A DNA stretch of 64,000 bases from a virus: the IMG/VR virus record IMGVR_UViG_3300025872_000036, positions 1 to 64,000 of that record, one strand, 5' to 3'. Shown piece by piece: positions 51,075-51,306 of this stretch; the first letter of the stretch is position 1; the number at the start of each line of letters is the position of its first letter. Below the pieces are notes generated by a model. It was not told the DNA's origin and searched no databases. It saw only the letters and a list, made by a program, of their open reading frames with translations. Position numbers and translations under genes: made by a program.

Positions 51075-51103
51075 TTGACATGCCCAGCATGTCATAGTAT
51101 ACT
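51075..51103 (+). promoter_or_regulatory. Sigma70-type promoter of a structured RNA
   Basis: TTGACA, 17-nt spacer, TATACT. The next element downstream is the 22-bp-stem RNA at 51126, not a protein gene. Confidence 0.8.
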
Positions 51104-51125
51104 TCAGATGTTGTTTGAAAATTGA

Positions 51126-51306
51126 ATATGACTTTCTGATGGGCGAGAAGTGCATCATCACACATTGGATGAAGCACCTTTGAGACGCGCGGGCGTCAGA
51201 CCAGGCGAAAGCCTTTAGGGGTCGGCCTTTGACGCGGTCACCTGTCACGGCGAAGATTGTGGGGATGACAGCCACAATTGGATCCTCGCCCATCAGAAAG
51301 TCATAT
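51126..51306 (+). ncRNA. 181-nt structured RNA closed by a perfect 22-bp stem
   Basis: 51126-51147 and 51285-51306 are perfect reverse complements. Inside are several helices, including a GTGC...GCAC arm (51150-51177 region), a GGC-GAAA-GCC tetraloop hairpin near 51204-51213, GACGCG-type pairings and an ATTGTGG/CCACAAT stem. It has its own promoter and lies 10 nt before tRNA-Arg. No ORF with a credible start. Unknown class. Confidence 0.7.

Follow-up and report, generated by a model that had tools for sequence, protein, structure and literature searches.

Between the tRNA-Trp and tRNA-Arg genes of a phage tRNA cluster lies a 181-nt element, here called E3, whose two ends are perfect complements. 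What is such an element for, and does it give rise to an RNA in its own right? A preliminary description took it for an orphan non-coding RNA with its own promoter. The locus was examined in a 64-kb window, a term that denotes the whole stretch of DNA analyzed, which is contained in a virus record of 196,948 bases. Judged by its sequence, the source phage is T4-like; the UvsX protein of the window shares 63–64% identity with T4-like phages of Pelagibacter, Methylophilales, and Synechococcus. The window harbors 34 tRNA genes, 34 of 34 on the + strand and nearly all within 47.9–56 kb. Elsewhere in the window, positions 38889–41074 hold phage genes resembling a tripartite tricarboxylate transporter (TctA-like membrane parts and a binding protein, the ORFs being judged by eye), an unusual cargo for a phage. 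An inverted repeat at 57773–57859, which includes a perfect 17-nt stem, overlaps a promoter-like TTGACA..TAATAT.

Predicted structure of E3

The promoter at 51075 and the 181-nt element behind it, with its complementary 22-nt ends, were recovered with the same coordinates as in the preliminary description, as was its location between the two tRNA genes (Table 1). The arms are separated by 137 nt and form the sole fully complementary pair among the inverted repeats of at least 16 nt, with arms at most 400 nt apart, that were found in the 64-kb window. The E3 RNA folds at −92.8 kcal/mol, compared with a mean of −56.0 (s.d. 4.7) for shuffled sequences, which gives a z of −7.8; none of 200 shuffles was as low. 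In the predicted fold, the closing stem is lengthened by outer UUGA/UCAG pairs and encloses several hairpins, including one with a GAAA tetraloop, as first reported (core AGGC-GAAA-GCCU at 51203–51214). A 282-nt precursor that begins at about 51110 and includes the whole of tRNA-Arg is predicted to form both the closing stem and, next to it, the tRNA acceptor stem, each with a probability near 1. Protein coding by E3 was considered and rejected: the longest + strand ORF lying entirely within it spans 22 aa, and a 115-aa minus-strand ORF passes through tRNA genes.

Table 1. Features of the E3 locus, its sister elements, and T4 RNAC (window positions unless an accession is given)
Feature	Position	Strand	Remarks
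tRNA-Trp	50992–51065	+	Flanks E3 upstream
Sigma70-type promoter of the tRNA-Arg unit, TTGACA-17-TATACT	51075–51103	+	11/12 consensus matches
AATATG 6-nt direct repeat	51125–51130 and 51312–51317	+	On either side of the filled site; single in empty sites
E3, structured RNA element, 181 nt	51126–51306	+	Fold and inverted repeat; 99% identical copy in L001
E3 closing stem, 5' arm ATATGACTTTCTGATGGGCGAG	51126–51147	+	Inverted-repeat search; pairing probability near 1 for 21/22 pairs in the precursor
E3 inner hairpin 1, GUGC-A-UCAUC / GAUGA-A-GCAC	51150–51177	+	Predicted fold; A.A mismatch in the window, U-A in L001
E3 inner hairpin GACGC-GCGG-GCGUC	51184–51197	+	Predicted fold
E3 inner hairpin GACC-AGGC-GAAA-GCCU-UUAGG-GGUC	51199–51223	+	Predicted fold; GAAA tetraloop
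E3 CUGUCA, followed by CGGCGAA	51242–51247	+	Module comparison; putative 5' partner of a loop-loop or H-type pseudoknot helix
E3 hairpin AUUGUGG-[GGA UGACAG]-CCACAAU	51256–51278	+	Loop UGACAG (51266–51271) complements 51242–51247
E3 closing stem, 3' arm CTCGCCCATCAGAAAGTCATAT	51285–51306	+	Inverted-repeat search and precursor pairing probabilities
tRNA-Arg (UCU)	51317–51391	+	Flanks E3 downstream; same presumed transcript as E3; folds independently of E3
E1, 139 nt, 22-nt arms with one mismatch	47759–47897	+	Ends 4 nt before tRNA-Met
E2, 113 nt, 22-nt arms with one mismatch	49039–49151	+	Ends 2 nt before tRNA-Val
T4 RNAC (species 1 RNA, band C)	NC_000866 70908–71046		139 nt; L201 1409–1547

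The only close copy of E3 was found in contig L001, with two differences. One lies in the loop of inner hairpin 1 and the other converts the A.A mismatch of the same hairpin into a U-A pair, a change that favors this hairpin, though it is a single event. With only two E3 sequences, 99% identical, the check by covariation in relatives is limited to this one site. The three tRNA genes upstream of the promoter in L001 are strongly unlike those of the window, and close similarity begins at the promoter. That only two near-identical copies occur in the data is what a chance structure in a G+C-rich spacer would allow, an explanation made extremely improbable by the folding energy, the perfect 22-nt repeat, and the occurrence of similar elements before other tRNAs. 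The proposal that E3 is a structured non-coding RNA is supported by its z value, the A.A repair in L001, and the nearby related elements with matching double changes presented below.

Presence and absence of E3 in the tRNA-Arg leader

Relatives sharing the tRNA cluster were located using the HNH gene at 52978 and the promoter pattern. Four of them (L182, L183, L185, and L195) retain the promoter region, which reads CAATTGAATATGCTCC directly into tRNA-Arg, the entire E3 being missing. The promoter is kept in relatives with or without E3, although the −35 element is weakened to TTGAAT in L183 and L195. As the same promoter runs straight into tRNA-Arg in the four relatives, the claim that E3 has its own promoter is not supported; from the sequence comparison, E3 is an optional component of the leader of tRNA-Arg, whether it arose there by insertion or was deleted elsewhere. 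It is missing from 4 of the 6 phages seen at the site and present in the window and L001, and is thus dispensable. Two events could account for the AATATG repeat: E3 may have inserted and duplicated 6 nt, or it may have been deleted between short repeats in the other lineage.

The four clean empty sites, and the AATATG copies that flank E3 where it is present, could also be the marks of a MITE-like, non-autonomous mobile DNA inserted in the tRNA-Arg leader, the RNA fold being a by-product of its inverted repeats. The perfect 22-nt inverted ends and a pair of tandem elements in L001 that share outer arms agree with such an origin, which is nevertheless unlikely. Several dispersed copies would be expected, and a search for a second copy of E3 in the 197-kb record found none. 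The direct repeat is also compatible with a microhomology deletion in a sister lineage. Moreover, the arms of E3 and of the sister element E1 are largely different, all E1 and E3 elements are encoded on the tRNA strand, immediately upstream of a tRNA, and their inner loops match as RNA despite different sequences.

The whole of E3 is situated between the promoter and tRNA-Arg, and other elements likewise lie directly before tRNAs. This location would suit a cis-acting leader in which the long stem serves as an RNase III site or attenuator controlling the timing or processing of tRNA-Arg, and no independent RNA is made. The stem of E3 would also suit this function, perfect duplexes of 22 bp being typical substrates of RNase III. 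However, in the four relatives the same promoter precedes the same tRNA-Arg with no E3 between them, no terminator-like site was found on the + strand around E3, and a bare stem would require neither a branched core nor matching loops. A purely cis-acting role is rather improbable.

Other sequence features were noted around the tRNA promoters. The spacer of the tRNA-Arg promoter contains a palindrome, TGACATG-CCCAG-CATGTCA (51076–51096), a possible operator that is broken in L183, and the spacer of a second tRNA promoter contains TACCCA-TTAGAT-TGGGTA (52056–52073), also a possible operator. Between tRNA-Arg and tRNA-Asn (51392–51549), interleaved CATGCAG/CTGCATG and TTGTTT/AAACAA may form a pseudoknot; the L001 variant is 16 nt longer.

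Other long-stem elements of the cluster

The term orphan, initially applied to E3, is not supported. At least two further long-stem elements, E1 and E2, precede other tRNAs of the cluster, with fold z values of −7.4 and −8.0, respectively, and small structured RNAs of phage tRNA clusters are already known as a kind, RNAC and RNAD of T4 having long been recognized.

In E1, the hairpins UUGAU[CUGCCA]AUCAG and AAAUCC[UGGCAG]GGAUUU have complementary loops. There are at least two alleles of E1, that of the window and E1L, found in L182, L183, L195, L199, and L200, which has the same outer arms and a different interior. L001 carries two E1-type elements in tandem, E1a and one of the window's type. 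Homology between the closing stems of E1 and E3 is not claimed, as their longest common run, TCTGATG, is expected by chance in 7% of cases.

E2 is tRNA-like, with a very long acceptor stem and a T-arm-like hairpin at its 3' end. In the L182 copy, this hairpin reads GGUAG-UUCGAUU-CUACC with a T-loop, and ARAGORN returns the call 'tRNA-???'. Compensatory double changes occur at two pairs among four sequences from four phages. E2 lacks the loop module shared by the other elements (see below). The neighborhood of E2, with the T-arm-like hairpin in L182, and the T-arm-like hairpin that also terminates T4 RNAC raise the question of whether E3 is the remnant of a tRNA or tRNA-like gene in which the acceptor stem is extended. 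This is very unlikely, since E3 was recognized neither by ARAGORN nor by the Rfam tRNA model, and no T-loop is present among its hairpin loops.

Additional structured segments were observed in the cluster. A structured leader RNA, closed by TCTGATATT/AACATCAGA, directly follows a promoter (TTGACA at 47602, TAGTAT) at 47629–47757 and is conserved in L182, L183, and L185. A conserved structured RNA (z of −4.8) lies between tRNA-Met and tRNA-Ser at 47977–48124, the first hairpin of which is swapped in relatives for a different but matching one. The tRNA finder does not call three short elements that resemble tRNAs or acceptor stems (49232–49310, 50803–50900, and 51805–51882); the first and last of these are absent in L001.

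A loop module common to E1 and E3

Near their 3' arm, E3, E1, E1L, and E1a have in common the module CGGUY - CUnnnA - RGCGAA - hairpin with a UnnnAG loop. The loop pairs, tabulated by hand, are CUGUCA/UGACAG in E3, CUGCCA/UGGCAG in E1, and CUACUA/UAGUAG in E1L and E1a; the letters differ and all pairs are complementary. With RGCGAA and strict helices, the module arises no more than once per 5,000 dinucleotide shuffles of each interior, and in 1–2% when RGCGAA is not required; as the module was recognized by comparing these same elements, its definition and the shuffle significance are partly post hoc. Outside the clade, the CUACUA module gave three matches attributed to chance, without closing stem or tRNAs.

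In E1, E1L, and E1a, the partners are the exactly complementary 6-nt loops of two hairpins, an arrangement found in 0–3 of 500 shuffles, and kissing loops are predicted. E3 departs from this strict arrangement, as the stem of its first hairpin is only 3 bp long (GUC/GGC). An H-type pseudoknot or pairing between molecules would consequently be more natural for E3. The fold that leaves UGUCA available for the pseudoknot is about 5 kcal/mol less stable than a nested fold that pairs the same bases. The extra pseudoknot helix (−6.3) roughly repays this cost, so that the competing nested hairpin is about as stable. With its weak first hairpin and this competitor, E3 is a less certain member of the module group. 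It does possess the features by which a family of E elements is proposed, namely a long closing stem, the module, a complementary-loop hairpin, and a position directly before a tRNA, a definition that is itself post hoc.

Comparison with known RNAs

The Rfam search that had been suggested for E3 gave no family match (Rfam 15, best E of 9.3, at chance level), and searches at gathering score and at high E-values returned only tRNAs and chance matches. No Rfam support was obtained for a hammerhead, SRP RNA, RNase P RNA, tmRNA, or 6S RNA. A blastn search of 50,697 phage records with E3 gave only short chance matches, and E1L also matched phages only at chance level. Among viral contigs, 18-mer and gapped E3 patterns retrieved the L001 contig, the rest being chance, and a covariance model built from the two E3 sequences, run on 61 plus 5 further loci and 16 whole records, again retrieved only L001. 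A 17-nt arm of E3 had 39 matches in bacterial genomes, 0 with an inverted copy. Within the data searched, E3 is thus outside all Rfam families and confined to one small phage clade known from metagenomes.

The tRNA region of T4 gives rise to RNAC and RNAD, two small and stable RNAs whose roles are given as unknown in a review and a recent omics paper (PMC3014915, PMC9697503). RNAC sequences of seven tevenviruses (L201 and L259–L264) were aligned: 97.8% of the cells are paired, 13 pairs show double changes, and 0 of 500 shuffles scored as high. Two hairpin loops, UUGACG and CGUCAA, are complementary over 6 nt in T4 and in six of the seven phages altogether; in the seventh, Yersinia phage fHe-Yen9-01, they are UUGAUG and CAUCAA, a matching double change. 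The stem of the second hairpin varies almost everywhere across the seven phages, and the loops remain complementary. No description of this loop pairing was found in the searchable open-access literature, a limited set, and RNAC matched no Rfam 15 model at gathering score. An RNAC search matched 720 phage records, all or nearly all from enterobacterial T4-like phages.

Like E3, RNAC is a small structured RNA with several hairpins, encoded near tRNA-Arg among the clustered tRNA genes of a T4-like phage. RNAC has two hairpins with complementary 6-nt loops; E3 has the 6-nt complement, with a 3-bp first stem. RNAC differs in that its ends pair weakly, in contrast to the 22-bp closing stem; it lies after tRNAs rather than before tRNA-Arg; and it finishes with a T-arm-like hairpin, which E3 lacks. 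No sequence similarity to T4 RNAC was detectable in E3 or the other E elements, so the resemblance is one of build and not a demonstrated kinship. RNAD is likewise a small stable RNA of a phage tRNA cluster, but its fold is weak (z of −0.8), it has no long closing stem, and no complementary hairpin loops were found in it.

Two other groups of phage RNAs were compared. In the phi29-type pRNA, the 5' and 3' ends are paired in a long helix, the core is branched, and two loops are complementary, for a size close to that of E3. The loops mediate self-assembly of the pRNA (PMC5340915). The similar size, paired ends, branched core, and complementary loops amount to a resemblance in layout only: the pRNA serves the packaging motors of phi29-like phages and pairs between molecules, whereas E3 belongs to a T4-like phage and has no Rfam match. 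ROOL and GOLLD RNAs form multimers held by kissing loops (PMC12286853). They are, like E3, structured phage RNAs often found near tRNA islands, but they are several hundred nt long and their Rfam models do not match E3.

Discussion

With a probability of roughly 0.6, E3 is a new small RNA of the phage, one member of a small family specific to this lineage, carried in the 5' leader of tRNA-Arg and acting like T4 RNAC. This reading is based on sequence, position, fold energies, presence and absence among relatives, matching double changes, and the loop pairing of RNAC. Transcription would be driven by the sigma70-type promoter of the tRNA-Arg unit, with a start expected at about 51110, shortly before the closing stem. 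Cleavage by RNase P at the first base of tRNA-Arg (51317) would release a product of about 205 nt, both ends of which would be locked by the 22–26-bp stem and shielded from exonucleases. In the branched core, CUnnnA may pair with the complementary hairpin loop, either in cis, as a pseudoknot or kissing loops, or in trans. E3 would then most likely act in the manner of RNAC, as a stable RNA of the tRNA cluster with a folded core that may bind a protein, the translation machinery, or another copy of itself.

It is conceivable, though doubtful, that T4-like phages broadly encode tRNA-cluster small RNAs that associate with themselves in defined pairs through loop-loop pairing, RNAC and the E elements then being one functional class. 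If this is true, each paralogue keeps its own loop pair, and a phage such as L001 would produce, beside its tRNAs, three distinct RNA species that each assemble with themselves. Unrelated sequences of a distant T4-like lineage show a similar layout in which the paired loops vary in concert, and this singles out the two loops as targets for mutation. RNAC thereby becomes a structural class open to testing, and the tRNA clusters of phages are seen to contain structured RNAs that are unannotated and beyond the coverage of Rfam.
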